DNA from: Candidatus Gaiellasilicea maunaloa
GTDB taxonomy: Bacteria > Actinomycetota > Thermoleophilia > Gaiellales > Gaiellaceae
Assembly: GCA_024330215.1 (NCBI GenBank)
Contig: JANDLU010000029.1
Location: forward strand, 1-37,504
Length of the DNA stretch: 37,504 nucleotides
Direction: 5' to 3'
A model generated the notes under the pieces. That model searched no databases. It was not told the origin of the DNA and saw only the letters and a list, made by a program, of their open reading frames with translations. Both the position numbers and the translations under genes were made by a program. This document shows positions 15,526 through 32,031 of this stretch, in pieces (within the stretch, counting starts at the first letter, position 1; each line of letters starts with the position of its first letter).

Positions 15526-15947
15526 ACAGCGCAAAGCCCGGCGAGGTCGCACGCGACTGGTACGTCGTCGACGCCGATGGCAAGACGCTCGGGCGCCTCG
15601 CAACCCAGATCGCCGACACGCTGCGCGGGAAGGGGAAGCCCGAGTACACCCCGCACGTCGACACGGGCGATTTCGTCGTCGTCGTCAACGCCGAGAAGAT
15701 CGCGGTCACCGGCCAGAAGCTCGACCAGAAGCTCTATCACCGTCACTCCGGCTATCCCGGCGGGTTGCGCACGCGCACGCTGCGCGTCCAACTCGACCGG
15801 CGGCCCACCGAGGTGCTGCGCAAGGCGGTCAAGGGAATGCTCCCGCGCAACCGACTCGCGCGCCAGCAGATCACCAAGCTCAAGATCTACGCCGGCCCGT
15901 CGCATCCGCACGAGGCGCAGGCGCCCAAGCCCTTGAAGGAGATGTAG
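15516..15947 (+). CDS. rplM: 50S ribosomal protein L13
   Basis: This 143-residue large-subunit protein begins [32 protein letters not shown] and continues with the family blocks [21 protein letters not shown] and VKGMLPRN. The final segment is [15 protein letters not shown]. It is co-transcribed with rpsI, the nearly universal pairing, and the TAG stop overlaps the next GTG (TAGTG). The start codon lies inside the second copy of a 19-bp tandem repeat, so the ribosome-binding context is also duplicated. Confidence 0.97.
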
Positions 15948-16447
15948 TGGCAGAGCAGGATCCCGTTCAGGAAACGCCGACGGAGACGATCCCGATCGAG
16001 CCCGCTTCGAGTGACGAGGCGCCGGCTCAGGAGGCGTCCGCTCAGCGCGCTCCGCTCGGCAAGGCCCAGTACCTCGGCACCGGCAAGCGCAAGACGTCGG
16101 TGGCCCGCGTGATCCTCCGCCCCGGCGACGGGACGACGTGGTTCAACGGGCGCACGATCGAGGACTACTTCCCCCGGCTCACGCACCGCGCCGCTGCGCT
16201 CGCGCCGCTCAAGGTCGCCGGGCTCGAGGGCACCTACGACATCCGCGTTCGCGTCCACGGCGGCGGCCCCACCGGCCAGGCCGGCGCGGTTCGGCACGGG
16301 ATCGCCCGGGCGCTCGTCGAGGCCGACCCGAACCTGCGGATCCCGCTCAAGCGCGAGGGCTTCCTGACGCGGGACGCGCGCCAGGTCGAGCGGAAGAAGG
16401 CCGGGCTGCACAAGGCGCGCAAGGCGCCCCAGTTCAGCAAGCGCTAG
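15947..16447 (+). CDS. rpsI: 30S ribosomal protein S9
   Basis: The S9 core starts near residue 40 ([15 protein letters not shown]) and ends with the conserved [17 protein letters not shown], whose basic tail contacts P-site t[22 protein letters not shown] is the central family signature. Of 166 residues, the first 38 or so are an acidic Glu/Pro/Ala/Thr-rich extension absent from the E. coli protein (130 residues). N-terminal extensions of S9 are common in actinobacteria. The stop overlaps a hairpin at 16446. Confidence 0.97.
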
Positions 16448-24536: not shown

Positions 24537-25606
24537 GGTTGCGCGTATCGATGCTCTTGACCGCTCTCATCGTGGGGGGTTGCAGCGGCGACGACGATTC
24601 GCCCACCGCGGGCTCGACGACGTCGGCGCGGCCCGCGACAACGACGACGACCCGACCTTCGGGCGAGGCGCCTCCTGCCTCTGCCGACGGCTCGATCGCG
24701 GATGCGGTCGCCGACGTGCTGCCGTCGGTCGTCAACGTCCGCACGATCGTTCCCGGCGGCGGCAGCGGCGAGGGCTCGGGCGTCGTCGTCGACCGGAACG
24801 GGATCATCGTCACGAACAACCACGTCGTCGACGGCGCCAGCGAGATCGCCGTCGCGTTCAACGACGGCCGTCACACACGGCCGCTGCGCGGAACCGTGAT
24901 CGGAACCGCCCCGGAACGCGACCTGGCCGTGCTCCGCGTCGCCGCTCGCGACCTCGTCCCGATCCGGATCGCACGCTCCTCGTCGCTACGGCTCGGCGAC
25001 GACGTGATCGCGGTCGGCTTCCCGCTCGGCCTCGGCGGCCCGACGGTCACGAGCGGAATCGTCTCCGGTCTCAACCGGACGATCGAGCCGGGCGACGGGG
25101 CGCGGCTCGAGGGGCTCCTCCAGACCGATGCGGCGATCAATCCGGGCAACTCCGGGGGCGCCCTCGTCGACCGGGCCGGGCGACTCGTCGGGATCAACAC
25201 CGCGGCGGCACGCGCCGGCGCCGCGGAGAACATCGGCTTCGCGATCGAGATCGACGCGGCCCTGCCGATCATCGAGGAGATCCGCAGCGAGCCCGAGGCC
25301 ACGCGCGCCTGGCTCGGGATCTCGATCGCGTCGGTCGAGTCGGACTCGGCGGCCGTCGCGCTCGGGCTCGATCCCGCCACACGCGGCGTTCGGATCACCG
25401 AGGTCTACGACGGCGGGCCCGCCGCTCGGGCCGAGGTCCTACCGGGCGACGTGATCGTCGCGCTCGACGGACGGCCGATCGGCTCCGCGCGCGAGCTGAC
25501 CGCGGCGGTGGCGCGGCTCGATCCCGGCGACAGTATCGAGCTCGAGCTGATCGACACGGCGGGGCCGCGGCTCGTTGAGCTCACGGTCACGCGGCGTCCT
25601 CGCTAG
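24533..25606 (+). CDS. HtrA/DegP-like serine protease, predicted lipoprotein
   Basis: The 357-residue protein has a short signal with a lipobox-like VGGC (Cys17), then a Ser/Thr/Pro-rich linker (about 22-50). The trypsin-like domain carries the full triad: His97 in TNNHVVDG, Asp130 in ERDLAVLRV and Ser207 in NPGNSGGAL. One PDZ domain is at the C-terminus (about 255-355: WLGISIASV, GDVIVALDGRPI). It is expected outside the membrane, as a quality-control protease. The GTG overlaps the VWA stop and its TAG overlaps the fdhD start. The tight linkage suggests it serves the same membrane-associated system. Confidence 0.92.
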   Translation: MRLRVSMLLTALIVGGCSGDDDSPTAGSTTSARPATTTTTRPSGEAPPASADGSIADAVADVLPSVVNVRTIVPGGGSGEGSGVVVDRNGIIVTNNHVVDGASEIAVAFNDGRHTRPLRGTVIGTAPERDLAVLRVAARDLVPIRIARSSSLRLGDDVIAVGFPLGLGGPTVTSGIVSGLNRTIEPGDGARLEGLLQTDAAINPGNSGGALVDRAGRLVGINTAAARAGAAENIGFAIEIDAALPIIEEIRSEPEATRAWLGISIASVESDSAAVALGLDPATRGVRITEVYDGGPAARAEVLPGDVIVALDGRPIGSARELTAAVARLDPGDSIELELIDTAGPRLVELTVTRRPR

Positions 25607-26382
25607 TGGACGCGCCGCCGCTGACGACGAGCCGCGTCCAGGTGCTGCGCGTTCCGGGCGGCGAGGAGGGCGACGTCGTCGCGGTCGAGGAGCCGCTCGA
25701 GATCAGGATCGAAGGGCGGCCGGTGGCGGTGACGATGCGCACGCCCGGCTACGACGAGGAGCTCGCGCTTGGCTTCTGCCTCTCAGAGGGCCTGCGGCCG
25801 GCGGGTGCGAGGCTGCCGGAAGATCTCGCCGCCAACACGGTCGAGGTGGACGCGCCCGGCTTCGATCCGGAGCGGCTCGCGCGCAGCTTCTACACGAGCT
25901 CGTCCTGCGGCGTCTGCGGCAAGGGTGCGCTCGAGGCGGTCGCGGTCGAGGCGTCGCGCGTCGAGAGCGAGCTCCGCGTCTCGGCGGGGCTCGTGCTCTC
26001 GCTACCGGCGCGCCAGCGCGAGGCGCAGGCCGGATTCGAGGCGACCGGCGGCCTGCACGCGACGGGGCTCTTCTCCTCGGCCGGAGAGCTCCTCTGCCTG
26101 CGCGAGGACGTCGGCCGCCACAATGCGCTCGACAAGGTGGTCGGCTGGGCGTTCGGCGCAGGGCTGCTACCGCTCGTGGACTCGATCCTCTGCGTCAGCG
26201 GCCGACTCTCCTTCGAGCTCGTCCAGAAGGCGGCGGTCGCCGGTTGCCCGCTGCTCGTCGCCGTCGGCGCTCCGTCGTCTTTGGCCGTCGAGCTTGCCGC
26301 CGATCGGGGTGTGACGCTGTGCGGCTTCGTCCGCGGCTCCTCGCTGAACGTCTACACCGGGGCGTGGCGGGTCGAGCAGTGA
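25606..26382 (+). CDS. fdhD: Formate dehydrogenase accessory sulfurtransferase
   Basis: FdhD transfers sulfur from a cysteine desulfurase to the molybdenum cofactor, which formate dehydrogenase needs for activity. In 258 residues the signature SSCGVCGKG (Cys101, Cys104) carries the sulfur-shuttling Cys pair. GLHATGLF and CLREDVGRHNALDKVVGWA are the other conserved blocks, and the C-terminus is FVRGSSLNVYTG. The GTG shares one base with the protease stop codon. Its client enzyme is encoded 1.4 kb away on the other strand, beyond mobA and birA. Confidence 0.95.
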   Translation: MDAPPLTTSRVQVLRVPGGEEGDVVAVEEPLEIRIEGRPVAVTMRTPGYDEELALGFCLSEGLRPAGARLPEDLAANTVEVDAPGFDPERLARSFYTSSSCGVCGKGALEAVAVEASRVESELRVSAGLVLSLPARQREAQAGFEATGGLHATGLFSSAGELLCLREDVGRHNALDKVVGWAFGAGLLPLVDSILCVSGRLSFELVQKAAVAGCPLLVAVGAPSSLAVELAADRGVTLCGFVRGSSLNVYTGAWRVEQ

Positions 26383-26390
26383 AGAGAAAC

Positions 26391-26493
26391 TTTGTGTTGA
26401 AACAACACAAGCCTTTCTCCCTCTCCGCACGCAAGAGCGTGTCGGCGCGATCTCGGGGCGTCGGCCGAAGAGCTTGTGTTGTTTCAACACAAG
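26391..26493. repeat. Pair of CTTGTGTTG/CAACACAAG palindromes, locus B
   Basis: Unit one (26391-26411) has arms TTTGTGTTG and CAACACAAG around AAA, with 8 perfect pairs plus one T-G. Unit two (26473-26493) has perfect 9-bp arms around TTT. Centres are 82 bp apart. Unit two ends 7 nt before the mobA start, where a Shine-Dalgarno would be expected and none is seen. The same family occurs at 6477-6567. Confidence 0.82.
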
Positions 26494-26500
26494 CGTTCTC

Positions 26501-27013
26501 GTGAGCCTTCGTCTCTCGGGGGTGCTGCTCGTGGGCGGGGCGTCGATGCGGTTCGGCTCGCCGAAGGCGCTGGCGCGCTTCGGCGGCGAGACGCTCGCCG
26601 AGCGGGGCTGGCGAACGCTCGGCGAGGCCTGCGACGAGCGGATCGCCGTCGGCAAGGGCGAGCTCGAGCTGCCCTTTCCCGTGCTCGAGGACGGCTTTGG
26701 GCTCCGGGCGCCGATCGCGGGCGTGGTCGCGGGACTGCGCGCAGCCGCGTACGAGACGGTCGTCTTCCTGCCGGTCGACTGCCCGCTCGTCACTCCCGAG
26801 CTGCTGCGGGCGCTCGGCGGGGCCGGGGCTGTGCCGCAGACCGGGCCGTTGCCCGGTACCTATGCGAAGGCCGACCTGCCCGAGCTGGAGGGCCGCCTCG
26901 CCGCTGGCGAGCTCTCGCTCCGCGGCGTCAACTCCCACGTCCTGGAGGTGGAAGCACACCTGCTCGCGAATGCGAACACGCCCTCGGAGCTCGCGGAGCT
27001 ACTCACAGGATGA
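26501..27013 (+). CDS. mobA: Molybdenum cofactor guanylyltransferase
   Basis: MobA attaches GMP to molybdopterin, producing the guanine dinucleotide cofactor used by formate dehydrogenases. The 170-residue protein starts SLRLSGVLLVGGASMRFGSPKAL, a form of the LAGGxSxRMGxDK nucleotide-binding signature. It then has the acidic FLPVDCPLV block and a short C-terminus with NTPSELAEL. It is somewhat shorter than E. coli MobA (194). The GTG at 26501 is required to include the signature. No ribosome-binding site is visible, and a perfect palindrome ends 7 nt upstream. The gene faces birA. Confidence 0.88.
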   Translation: MSLRLSGVLLVGGASMRFGSPKALARFGGETLAERGWRTLGEACDERIAVGKGELELPFPVLEDGFGLRAPIAGVVAGLRAAAYETVVFLPVDCPLVTPELLRALGGAGAVPQTGPLPGTYAKADLPELEGRLAAGELSLRGVNSHVLEVEAHLLANANTPSELAELLTG

Positions 27014-27044: not shown

Positions 27045-27743
27045 CTAGCGCTCGAAGAGGACCTCACCGCTCTCGACGAGGAGCGGCCCGGCCTCGCCGT
27101 CGACGAGCAGCCGTCCGTCCCGCTCGATCCGTGAGGCGACGCCGGCAGCACCGTCGACCGTGACCCGCCGCCCTCGGAGGAAGTCGCGCGAGCCGAGGTC
27201 GTCGTAGATCGCGTCGAGGCCGCCGTCGCGCCAGGCGCCGTAGCAGCGGTCGAGCCGGCCGAGCAGCACCGTCAGCACCTCCTCGCGGTCGCGCTCTCTG
27301 CCGTCGACGGTGCGCAGCGATCCGGGCGCGACCTTCGCGTCCAGGGGGAGTCCCTCGCGCGACTGGTTCACGTTCAATCCGATCCCGAGGATCACGACGC
27401 CGTCCTTCAGCTCCGCGAGGATCCCCGCGACCTTGCGCCGCGCGAGCAGGACGTCGTTCGGCCATTTGATCTGCGCCGCGAGCCCGGTCGCGTCCTCGAC
27501 CGCGAGCGCGACGGCGACGGCCGCGACGAGCGAGAGTTCCTGAGCACGGCGCTCGGGCGGCGGCCGCAGCAGCACAGAGACCAGCACCGAAGTGCCCGGC
27601 GCCTCGATCCAGAGCCGCCCGAGCCGGCCGCGCCCAGCCGTCTGGTGGTCGGTCGTCGCGATCGCGCCTTCCGGATCGTCGGGGTAGAGCAGCGCCTGCG
27701 TCGACTCGCACTCCGCCTCGTGCCGCCTGGGGCTCCCGATCAC
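27045..27743 (-). CDS. birA: Biotin-[acetyl-CoA-carboxylase] ligase
   Basis: This enzyme activates biotin with ATP and attaches it to carboxylase carrier domains. The 232-residue protein has TAGRGRLGR (biotinyl-AMP loop), IKWPNDVL and KVAGILAEL, with GIGLNVNQ following, and an SH3-like C-terminal domain (RRVTVDGAAGVASRIERDG). No N-terminal helix-turn-helix is present, so it is the monofunctional form without repressor activity. The GTG start at 27743 lies 11 nt after the fdhA stop, so it may be the third gene of the fdhB-fdhA transcript. No functional link to formate oxidation is known. Confidence 0.93.
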   Translation of the reverse strand: MIGSPRRHEAECESTQALLYPDDPEGAIATTDHQTAGRGRLGRLWIEAPGTSVLVSVLLRPPPERRAQELSLVAAVAVALAVEDATGLAAQIKWPNDVLLARRKVAGILAELKDGVVILGIGLNVNQSREGLPLDAKVAPGSLRTVDGRERDREEVLTVLLGRLDRCYGAWRDGGLDAIYDDLGSRDFLRGRRVTVDGAAGVASRIERDGRLLVDGEAGPLLVESGEVLFER

Positions 27744-27754
27744 ACGACTTGGTC

Positions 27755-30445
27755 TCACAAGACTTCTAGGCGCACCGCCGACACCTTGTACTCGGGTGTC
27801 CCGATCAGCGGGTCGCCGACGTCGTGCGTGAGCCAGTTCACCTTCGCCTCCGCGAAGTGGAGGGCCATCCAGACGAGCCCGGGGAAGACGCGCGCCGACA
27901 CCTGCGCCCGTGCCTGGAGGTCGCCGCGGCGGGAGACGAGCCGCACCCAATCCCCGTCCAGAACGCCGAGCGAGGAAGCATCCTCCGCCGAGATCTCGAA
28001 GAAGGGATCGCGCTGCTTGTCGGTGATCCCGTCCTCCCGCATCGTCATCGCGCCCGAGTTGTAGTGGTAGAGCGTCCGCCCCGTCGAGAGGACGAAGGGG
28101 TAGTCGGCGTCCGGCTCCTCGATCGGCGGCTGGTACTCGACCGGATGGAACTTGCCACGGCCGGAGGGACGCGCCGTCGTCTTCTCGTGCAGGAAGCGCG
28201 AGCCCTCGTCCTCGAGCGAGGCGACGGGCCACTGGAGGCCCTCGTCCTCGAGCCGGAAGTAGCGGATCCCGAACCAGTTCGGACAGAGATCGGCAAGCTC
28301 GTTCCAGACCGACTCCGCGTCCGGGTACTCCGGCCAGTCGCAGCCGAGCTCCCTCGCCAAATCGAGCACGATCTGTCGGTCGCCCCGCGCGTTCCCGGGC
28401 AGCGGCACGGCCGCGCGGACGCGGTTGACCCGTCGCTCGGTGTTCGTGAAGGTGCCGTCCTTCTCGGCGAAGCTCGACGCGGGGAGGACGACGTCCGCGT
28501 AGCGCTCCGCCGTGTCGCTGAGGAAGATGTCCTGCGAGACGAGGAACTCGAGCTTCGAGAGCCCTTCGGCCACGTGATGCGCGTTCGGCTCGGTGTGACC
28601 GGGGTTCTCGCCGATCAGGTAGAGCGCCTTGATCCGGTCGTCGTGGAGGCCCGACATGATCTGGTCGAGCCGGAAGCCGGCGCGCTCGGGCACCTCGATG
28701 CCCCAGGCCTCGGAGAACTTCGCCCTGACGACGGGGTCGTCGACCGGCTGGTAGCCGGGCAAGTAGGTCGGGTTTGCGCCCGAGTCGTTCAGCCCCTGGA
28801 CGTTGTTCTGGCCGCGCAGCGCGTTCAGTCCTGTCGACTCGTAGCCGAGATGGCCCGTCATCAGGACGAGGTTCGCGAGCGACCAGATGTTGTCGACTCC
28901 GCAGGCGTGCTCCGTGATCCCGAGCGTGTAGAAGATCGCCGCGTGCCGCTCGGTCGCGTACTCGCGCGCGGTCGCGCGGATCGCCTCCGCCGGGACGCCC
29001 GTCCAGCGCTCGCCCTCCTCCGGCGGGTAGCGGGCGACAACCTCGCGCACCGCCTCGAAGTCCTCCGTGTGCTCGCGGACGTAGGCCTCGTCGTGCAGCC
29101 CCTCCTCGAGGATCGTGTGCATGATCGCGTTCAGGAGCCAGACGTCCGAGCCGGGTCGGAGTTGGAGGTGGCGCTTCGCGATCTTCGTCAGCCAGATCGC
29201 GCGCGGATCGGCGACGACGAGCGTCGCGCCCTTGCGGACCGCTTTCTTGATCCGCAGCGCCAGCACCGGGTGCGCCTCGGTCGTGTTCGAGCCGATCACG
29301 AGCAGGAAGCGGGCGTTCTCGATCTCGGGGATCGAGTTGGTGGAGGCGCCTCTGCCGAACGACCTGACCAGGCCGTAGAGGGTGGGAGCGTGTCAGGTGG
29401 CTTCGCAGGAGTGGACGGAGTTGGTTCCGAGGCCGATCCGGGCGAGCTTCTGGATCAGGTAATTCTCCTCGTTCGTGAGGCGGGCGGAAGCGAGGACTCC
29501 GATCGCCTGGGCCGAGTGGCGTCTGATCACCCCCTTCAGCCCGTCGGCTGCTGCGGCGAGCGCGGCCTCCCAGGTGGCCGGATGGAGCTCGCCGTCCTCG
29601 CCGCGCACGAGCGGCTCGGTCAGGCGGTCGGGGTGGTGGACGAAGTTGAACGAGAACCGTCCCTTGACGCAGAGGTCGCCCTCGTTCGAGACGTACTCGG
29701 GCTTCGAGGTGACCTTGACGATCCGCTTCGTCTCGGGGTCGACGTTGAGGTCGATCTGGCAGCCGACACCGCAGAAAGTGCACGTCGTCTTCGTCTGCTC
29801 GAGCTGCCGCTCCTCGACGCCGGCGCCCTCGAGGAACTTCTCGTAGATGGCGCCCGTCGGGCAGACGGAGAGGCAGCCGCCGCAGAGCTCGCACTCGGTG
29901 TCGAGCCAGGAGCGCTCCCAGGTCGGGACGATCCGCGCCTCCGGGCCGCGGCCCTCGAGCGAGAGCGCCGAGCACTGCATCACCTCCTGCGTGTAGCGGA
30001 CGCAGCGGTTGCAGAGGATGCACGTGTCGGGCTCGTAGCCCATCAGGCGGTTCCGGTCGGCGTACGGCTCCCGCTTCGCGTCGGGAAGGACGAGCGGCGC
30101 CTCGGCCCCGAGCTCGCGAGCGAGGTCGACGAGCTCGTTCGGTCGCCCGCCGGGATTCGCGTTCAGGTGCTCGGAGAGCAGCATCTCGGTCAGCGTCTTC
30201 CGAAGCTGGGGCACGTTCGAGTTGGTGGAGACGACCATGCCTGCGCTGACGCGAGTGGCGCAGGCGGGGAGTGGCCGCGACGACCCCTCGACGCCGACGA
30301 CGCACATCCGGCAGCCGCCGTAGGGGTCGAGCTTGTCGTCGTGGCAGAGCGTGGGGACGAAGACGCCGTTGCGCGCTGCCGCGTGGACGAGTAGCTCGTC
30401 CTCCTGCGCGCTCGCCGGCCGGCCGTCGAGGGTGAACTCGATCAC
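27755..30445 (-). CDS. fdhA: Formate dehydrogenase alpha subunit, selenocysteine-containing
   Basis: This is the catalytic Mo/W-bisMGD subunit of a soluble NAD-type formate dehydrogenase, 896 residues if TGA 29393-29395 is read as Sec351. The frame is open through both halves and reads SVHSCEAT-Sec-HAPTLYGL, with the conserved His after Sec. Order of domains: [2Fe-2S] ferredoxin domain (Cys34, Cys45, Cys48, Cys62); two 4Fe-4S motifs (CILCNRC and CELCGGCLSVC); the CTFCGVGC cluster of the molybdopterin domain; cofactor domains; and a C-terminal MopB domain ending EYKVSAVRLEVL. Two cluster motifs are incomplete. The Cys residues of the usual His-Cys3 cluster are absent after SEH, and the fourth Cys of CxxCxxCxxxC is Thr. 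The GTG start overlaps the fdhB stop (GTGA). Confidence 0.9.
29360..29395 (-). promoter_or_regulatory. UGA(Sec) codon with predicted bacterial SECIS hairpin
   Basis: On the minus strand TGA (29395-29393) is followed after 17 nt by a hairpin at 29375-29360. It has stem CGGCCU/AGGUCG (6 bp, one G-U pair) and loop GGUC. The loop begins 24 nt after UGA. The E. coli fdhF SECIS also presents GGUC in its apical loop at a comparable distance, which SelB recognises. The hairpin lies in coding sequence, as expected in bacteria. Confidence 0.8.
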
Positions 30446-32031
30446 GCGGACGCAGGTTCGCCGAGCGTGGCTGGGCCGAGCGGCGCGAACAGCTCCGGCC
30501 AGCGCTCGAACGCGTTCCGCACCGGGTAGGGCGCCGCCTGGCCGAGCCCGCAGATCGAGGTCAGGGTCATCGCGTCGAGCCATTCTTCCACCTGCCTGCG
30601 CGACATGGCCGCTCGGCCGTGCTCGAGCTCCTCGCAGACGTGGTGGAGCGCGCGGTTGCCGATCCGGCACGGCGTGCACTTCTGGCAAGACTCCTCGGCG
30701 AAGAAGCGCATCGTCTCGGCGAGCAACCGGAGCGGGGCGTAGGACTTCGGGAACACCTGCACCGCCGCCGAGCCGACGCCGCAGCCCCACTCGGTGAGCG
30801 CCTCGCGGGTGAGGGGTACGTCGAGCGCGGCAGGCGGCAGGATTCCGCTCGCCGCGCCGCCTGGCACGATCGCGCCCGGCTCGCCGACCAGCCCGGCTGC
30901 GTAGCCGTCGATCAGCTCGCGGAGGACGATTCCGTTCGGCGCCTCGTAGCAACCCGGCCTCGCTACGGCACCCGTCACCGACCAGAGGCGCACGCCGGGC
31001 GAGCCGGTCGCCGGAGAGCCCAGTCCGGCCCACCAGTCGCCGCCGTTTCGGAGGATCGCCGGGACGTGCGCGAGCGTCTCCACGTTCTGGATCAACGTCG
31101 GCCTGCCGAGGTAGCCGACCTGGCTCGGGAAGGGCGGTTTCAGCCGCGGCATCCCGCGCCGGCCCTCCATCGACTCGAGCATCGCGGTCTCCTCGCCGCA
31201 GATGTAGGCACCTGCGCCGACGACGAGGTCGAGGGACAGACCCTCGAGCAGGCCGGCGGCGCGGAACTCCTCGATCGCGGCCGTGAGGCGAGCGCGCGCC
31301 GTTGCGTACTCCTCTCTGATGTAGATGTAGGTGTACGCCTCCATCGCCCCGAGCGCGCGGGCCGCGAGCAGCGTCGCCTCGACGAGCAGATGCGGGCGCA
31401 GCTCCATCACGTAGCGGTCCTTGATCGTCCCGGGCTCGCCCTCGTCGGCGTTGACGATCACGTAGCGCGGGCCGGCCTCGGCTGCGACGGCCTCCCACTT
31501 CCGCCACGTCGGGAAGCCGGCGCCGCCGTAGCCGGAGAGTCCGGAGGCGCTCAGCTCGGCGACGATCCGCTCGAGCGCAAGGGGCTCGCGGAGCAACGCA
31601 AGTCCGCCGCGGCGCTCGTAGTCCGCGAGCGTCTCGTCGCGTCGTGCGAGCCCGAGCGAGGCGCCGTCGTTCGTCGAGTACGTGACCCCGCCGACCACCT
31701 CGTCCCCGTGGAGGACGACCGGTGCGAGCTCGCAGTGGCCGAGGCACGGCACCTCGATCGCGCCTGCGCCGAGCTGCTCCCGCCCCCCGCGCGAGTCGCA
31801 GACCGGCCCGGTGCAGACGCGCACGGCGTCGACCGGCACCTGGAGGAAGGAATAGAAGGACGTCACCTCGTGCACGTCGCCGTGCCGCAGGCGCATGTGG
31901 TCGGCGAGCGCGTCGGAGAGCTCGGGCGTGATCGGCCCGACCTCGCGTCGCAGCCGACCGAGGTTGTCGAGCAGGCGCGTGCGCTCTCTCGGCAACGTCT
32001 CGAGCACCGTCGCGAGCCGGAGCACGTCCAC
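30442..32031 (-). CDS. fdhB: Formate dehydrogenase beta subunit, NuoE-NuoF fusion
   Basis: This 529-residue diaphorase subunit passes electrons from the catalytic subunit to NAD+. Residues 1-105 are a NuoE-like [2Fe-2S] domain with Cys73, Cys78, Cys96 and Cys100. The spacing between the Cys pairs is 17 residues, against about 35 in NuoE, so the thioredoxin-like fold is shortened. From about 165 on it is NuoF-like. GYGGAGFPTWRKW (168-179) binds FMN, VNADEGEPGTIKDR follows, and GAGAYICGEETAMLES binds NADH. The 4Fe-4S ligands are ESCQKCTPCR (Cys449, 452, 455) and SICGLGQ (Cys494). It precedes fdhA with GTGA coupling. Confidence 0.92.
   Translation of the reverse strand: MDVLRLATVLETLPRERTRLLDNLGRLRREVGPITPELSDALADHMRLRHGDVHEVTSFYSFLQVPVDAVRVCTGPVCDSRGGREQLGAGAIEVPCLGHCELAPVVLHGDEVVGGVTYSTNDGASLGLARRDETLADYERRGGLALLREPLALERIVAELSASGLSGYGGAGFPTWRKWEAVAAEAGPRYVIVNADEGEPGTIKDRYVMELRPHLLVEATLLAARALGAMEAYTYIYIREEYATARARLTAAIEEFRAAGLLEGLSLDLVVGAGAYICGEETAMLESMEGRRGMPRLKPPFPSQVGYLGRPTLIQNVETLAHVPAILRNGGDWWAGLGSPATGSPGVRLWSVTGAVARPGCYEAPNGIVLRELIDGYAAGLVGEPGAIVPGGAASGILPPAALDVPLTREALTEWGCGVGSAAVQVFPKSYAPLRLLAETMRFFAEESCQKCTPCRIGNRALHHVCEELEHGRAAMSRRQVEEWLDAMTLTSICGLGQAAPYPVRNAFERWPELFAPLGPATLGEPASA

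Follow-up and report, generated by a model that had tools for sequence, protein, structure and literature searches.

The question raised by this locus is whether a formate dehydrogenase (FDH) gene that contains a single in-frame TGA codes for an intact enzyme with selenocysteine (Sec) at that position. The sequence analysed, hereafter the window, is a 37,504-nt stretch from Candidatus Gaiellasilicea maunaloa, which represents the entire contig C122 of a 3.85-Mb assembly consisting of 200 contigs.

The formate dehydrogenase gene and its neighbours

The gene occupies positions 27755..30445 on the minus strand and, as was claimed in the first-pass annotation, its frame is open from the GTG at 30445 to the TGA at 27755 with one internal stop, the TGA of codon 351 (29393..29395, minus strand), which lies in the local peptide SCEAT-U-HAPTLYGL. 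The read-through protein of 896 aa, including the predicted Sec351, carries 2Fe-2S, 4Fe-4S and Mo/W-bis-PGD domains (Pfam Fer2_4, Molybdop_Fe4S4, Molybdopterin and Molydop_binding) and matches the TIGR01591 (Fdh-alpha) profile over positions 1-671 of 672 with 745.3 bits, the cut-off being 666.25. It aligns end to end with the FDH alpha chains 9wxb, 6tg9 and 7vw6 from the PDB, the catalytic Cys of which is found opposite U351, and gives a strong match of 482 bits to E. coli FDH-H (1aa6). The earlier placement of the TGA at the Sec/Cys site of Mo/W FDHs is borne out by this alignment, and so is the conserved His expected next to it, as the UHxP motif is present in the form of U351-H-A-P and Cys or Sec is followed by His in 79/79 homologues. 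Standard ORF calling does break the gene, as had been foreseen for automatic callers, and after the TGA it lists in the same frame only the region 27755-29299 (514 aa). Judged by homology, 27755..30445 when read through is a complete FdhA/FdsA-type alpha subunit with a predicted function in formate oxidation or CO2 reduction. A plus-strand open frame of 856 aa (27824-30394) lies antisense to it and is most likely a by-product of the high GC content.

The adjacent gene (30442..32031, minus strand), whose terminal TGA shares bases with the FDH start (GTGA), codes for a fused NuoE/NuoF-like beta subunit, an NAD/FMN-binding diaphorase with the Pfam domains 2Fe-2S_thioredx (PF01257), Complex1_51K (PF01512) and NADH_4Fe-4S (PF10589). 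Its top PDB match is the FDH beta subunit 7e5z_B (572 aa, aligned residues 39-564), and a fused NuoEF-like gene is located near the FDH gene in nearly all close relatives. Two cofactor-related genes that had already been reported alongside were confirmed by Pfam, namely fdhD, coding for the sulfurtransferase for FDH cofactor maturation (25606..26382, plus strand; PF02634, 212 bits), and a mobA-like molybdenum cofactor nucleotidyltransferase gene (26474..27013, plus strand; PF12804, 80 bits); both are found near the FDH gene in most close relatives having enough flanking sequence. Immediately downstream of the FDH gene there is a birA-like biotin protein ligase gene (27045..27770, minus strand; PF03099), which probably has no functional link to FDH. 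At the contig end (36576-37403, minus strand), a gene resembling REP-associated tyrosine transposases was detected with 71.5 bits, just below the cut-off of 80.

Selenocysteine machinery and a second predicted selenoprotein

A check of the genome for selA, selB, selC and selD had been proposed, and all four were found in the assembly, selC being cut off by a contig end and each lying on a contig other than that of the FDH gene. Contig C123 carries selA (528 bits, cut-off 268), coding for a complete SelA, together with selB (329 bits, cut-off 242), the product of which possesses the C-terminal SelB winged helix (PF09107). In SelB proteins that have been studied, binding of the SECIS RNA resides in this winged helix. 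The selD gene on contig C58 (340 bits, cut-off 125) codes for the Cys form of SelD (GGCAAK). The tRNA-Sec gene selC, with the anticodon UCA, is situated at the extreme end of C123 and scores 49.5 bits, above the gathering score of 47; as it matches model positions 1-82 of 91, the final ~9 bases of the acceptor stem would lie beyond the contig. About 1.4 kb from it there is a degenerate second selC-like sequence (C123 1432-1514, minus strand, L022/L002; 28.9 bits), with the D-arm and anticodon arm nearly identical to those of selC and without a recognisable T-arm, which is a pseudogene or an insertion-site remnant. An Rfam scan of the window gave no match. The contamination estimate for the assembly is 4.97%, but the stretches of C123, C58 and C80 agree with the window in GC content (0.70-0.71) and in tetranucleotide composition (r 0.98-0.995).

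Contig C80 contains a SelW/Rdx-family gene (15915-16112, minus strand; L147) which is a second predicted selenoprotein gene, with the TGA located in a CxxU motif (CPVU) of the peptide VAVEIHYCPVUSSYDVRAASLAAELN and an 8-bp hairpin bearing a GUC loop 25 nt past the UGA. The Rdx gene contains a TGA in 44/45 Rdx-positive genomes of those sampled from the class. The selenoprotein families covered were FDH, SelD, SelW/Rdx and UGSC, the last of which gave no hits, nor did its controls.

Distribution among homologues and within the class

Among the 84,980 species genomes searched, 79 FDH loci were found, with codon 351 being TGA in 46, TGC in 23 and TGT in 10 of them and no other codon found. The close homologues (77-97% identity), which include Thermoleophilia and Gaiellaceae, have TGA in 18/18 cases. 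Among 249 genomes sampled from the class, 66 possess a TGA-containing FDH gene, the Sec position itself having been checked in 52 of these, and 44 possess a TGA-containing SelW-like gene. The selA gene was detected in 56/66 genomes with TGA-FDH versus 72/183 others (Fisher p 8e-11, to be taken as indicative only, the genomes being related); G133 and G194, where the TGA is ~140 codons upstream and the site itself has Cys, were left out of this comparison. The 10 TGA-FDH genomes without detected selA are all drafts with 64-91% completeness. As a separate observation, 49/249 genomes have selA and match neither TGA-FDH nor TGA-SelW, so the class probably harbors more selenoprotein families.

The suggestion that selenoproteins are sparsely reported in high-GC actinobacteria of this kind needs correction, since in the class they are not sparse by the above counts and actinobacterial Sec-FDHs have been published; selenoproteins of Actinobacteria were listed previously (PMC1794560). 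As Sec-FDH is widespread in the class, automatic annotation would tend to split these genes and to overlook formate metabolism. No earlier report of Sec use in Gaiellales or Thermoleophilia, this selenoprotein included, was found in the open-access literature, and the present data provide strong sequence evidence that uncultured soil actinobacteria of the Thermoleophilia/Gaiellales type decode UGA as Sec in at least two proteins.

The putative SECIS hairpin

Downstream of the TGA there is a hairpin, ACGGCCU-GGUC-AGGUCGU (29359..29376, minus strand), of 7 bp and -8.2 kcal/mol, which is invariant in 18/18 close homologues. It begins 16 nt past the UGA and its apical GGUC (29369-29366) 23 nt past it, so that of the earlier description, a 6-bp hairpin with a GGUC loop starting 18 nt downstream, the hairpin and the loop were retained and the length and position corrected. 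Its strength is unremarkable for GC-rich DNA (z = +0.45). The general rule for bacterial SECIS elements (bSECIS; PMC13188914) accepts it (GGUC loop, 7 bp, 23 nt, -8.2 kcal/mol) and accepts 24% of synonymous resamplings too, which, together with the ordinary z value, means that the energy of the hairpin is no evidence for a SECIS element. A GGUC tetraloop on a stem of at least 6 bp at an allowed spacing appears in 0.46% of synonymous resamplings.

Conservation was assessed with a synonymous-site scan over 17 homologues below 95% identity, in which codons 357-365 came out as the most conserved of the 887 nine-codon windows in the gene. Codons 357-362 and 364 (TAC GGC CTG GTC AGG TCG ... GGC) are invariant, the fixed third positions in 357-362 including those of an AGG Arg and a CTG Leu, and codons 354-356 and 366-368 are free at their third positions. 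Since the 23-nt hairpin does not vary within the close clade, there is no covariation there. The equivalent hairpin of 38 distant TGA homologues shows 96.4% pairing, 4/6 of its pairs having changed on both sides, and pairing is 54.5% or less when the position is slid. In 41 Cys homologues the hairpin is mostly lost, with a pairing of 47.6%. On these sequence comparisons the hairpin is very probably not a chance structure, with its conservation being stronger evidence than its energy.

Position of the hairpin relative to the TGA

The GGUC begins 23 nt past the UGA in 18/18 members of the clade to which the window gene belongs and 18 nt past it in 38/38 distant TGA homologues, as well as in E. 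coli fdhF. Thus, the layout described before as E. coli-like is such with respect to the GGUC loop and differs in the exact distance; here the 18-nt position is only 50% paired. In a tree of 98 proteins the 23-nt group forms one clade (SH-aLRT 100), and its sister pair, two Planctomycetota MAGs (L044 and L096), has kept the 18-nt hairpin. In this pair Gly-Leu-Val is encoded by GGU CUG GUC, which gives overlapping GGUC at 18 and 23 nt. It is quite probable that the SECIS moved by 5 nt within one orthologous gene family, for which the double GGUC of the sister pair would provide a bridge where the SelB contact could switch. A plausible path may be suggested, in which a Val after Gly-Leu gave a second GGUC, the stem pairing was formed around it and the first GGUC was then lost. 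As published bSECIS loops are found 16-37 nt from the UGA (PMC13188914), the shift stays within known limits. No earlier report of a SECIS changing position within one group of FDH orthologues was found in the open-access literature.

A second Sec-FDH lineage occurs in the same taxonomic families (L178-L195; families f1-f3 and f11), with the TGA at the Sec site, open frames mostly of ~650 aa and homology to the window protein from residue ~273, apparently without the Fe-S N-terminus. Its SECIS is at 18 nt, so the shift is specific to the present gene and does not apply to the group's Sec genes in general. The notion that the 23-nt register is a family-wide adaptation of SelB is weakened by this lineage and by the SECIS of SelW-like genes, mostly at 25 nt. 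Genomes of the family contain either the 23-nt clade or the 18-nt lineage, and none of those sampled contains both, so a matched change in the tolerance of SelB is possible.

Decoding of UGA 351

The reading of UGA 351 as Sec is supported by the TGA being at the catalytic site, by the sel genes and the second TGA-containing selenoprotein gene, by the TGA in homologues and by the synonymous conservation downstream, and we consider it nearly certain that this codon of the FDH gene would be decoded as selenocysteine. The gene product would serve as catalytic subunit in an NAD-linked Mo/W formate dehydrogenase of the cytoplasm and pair with the fused NuoEF diaphorase. SelD would supply selenophosphate, SelA would convert Ser-tRNA-Sec into Sec-tRNA-Sec, and SelB would deliver the latter to the ribosome, with the GGUC hairpin bound by the winged helix at the C-terminus of SelB. 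Relative to its usual location in FDH genes, the hairpin of this clade lies 5 nt further downstream. Sec351 may then act as a metal ligand, together with the next His, in formate oxidation, with the electrons presumably passing via the Fe-S clusters to FMN and NAD.

The TGA could instead be a sequencing or assembly error for TGC or TGT in a Cys-type FDH, from which it differs by one base and which is found at 33/79 loci. This possibility had been named at the outset and gained no support, as every one of the 18 close homologues, which come from many separate assemblies, has the TGA as well, which excludes such an error for practical purposes, and it is accompanied by the conserved SECIS block and by sel genes in the genome. 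The breaking of the gene by standard ORF calling would also be expected if the TGA ended translation of a truncated enzyme or of a gene that is decaying or split, which is very improbable because there is no other stop or frameshift, protein identity across the clade is 77-81% on both flanks of the TGA, and synonymous variation is absent precisely where the SECIS lies.

An open frame by itself does not specify the residue inserted, and the TGA might be read by a suppressor tRNA or be reassigned genome-wide to Trp or Cys rather than decoded by the SelB/SECIS route. Such decoding has just as little probability as a truncated product, since genes of the window terminate at TGA (e.g. 30444-30442 and 27757-27755), which shows that TGA remains a stop, the site alternates with Cys only, and both the sel genes and the SECIS are present. 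Somewhat less improbable, though still unlikely, is that Sec is inserted with the help of a functional SECIS elsewhere and that the downstream block reflects a constraint on the protein or on codon usage, with which the unexceptional energy of the hairpin and the lack of covariation in the clade are compatible. Against this, third positions are invariant over codons 357-362 with neighbouring codons varying, and the GGUC is kept though displaced and is lost in most Cys homologues, so decoding as Sec by means of the hairpin described here is preferred.

Comparison with known systems

Among bacterial selenoproteins, FdhA has the widest distribution (PMC13188914, PMC5029168). The prediction of a selenoprotein at this locus is right, well supported and biologically ordinary, and the moved SECIS adds a modest point that can be tested. 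The 18-nt and 23-nt genes constitute a natural pair within the same gene family suitable as a test of the freedom of SelB in the UGA-to-loop distance, and the displaced SECIS would, if true, be a case of an RNA signal in a coding region migrating without loss of function.

Sec-containing NAD(P)-linked FDHs of the FdhA/FdsA type, such as FdhA-FdhB of Moorella thermoacetica, are among the closest known systems, sharing with the window system the active-site Sec, predicted in the latter, the N-terminal 2Fe-2S/4Fe-4S extension and a NuoF-like partner. The window system differs from this type in its actinobacterial host, in NuoE and NuoF being fused in one subunit and in the SECIS loop at 23 nt. 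FDH1 of Methylorubrum extorquens (7vw6/7e5z) and FdsABG of Rhodobacter capsulatus (6tg9) have alpha subunits homologous end to end to the window protein, with Cys at the position of its predicted Sec. E. coli FdhF (FDH-H, Sec140) has a homologous catalytic core and the same GGUC apical loop, whereas its GGUC is at 18 nt versus 23 nt in the window gene and it is without the NAD-linked partner domain architecture. Likewise, fdnG of Corynebacterium aurimucosum (PMC2830990) is an actinobacterial FDH gene with an in-frame UGA accompanied by selABCD, although it is of the fdnG-fdxH type and its sel genes are clustered, unlike those of the window's genome, which are situated on other contigs.
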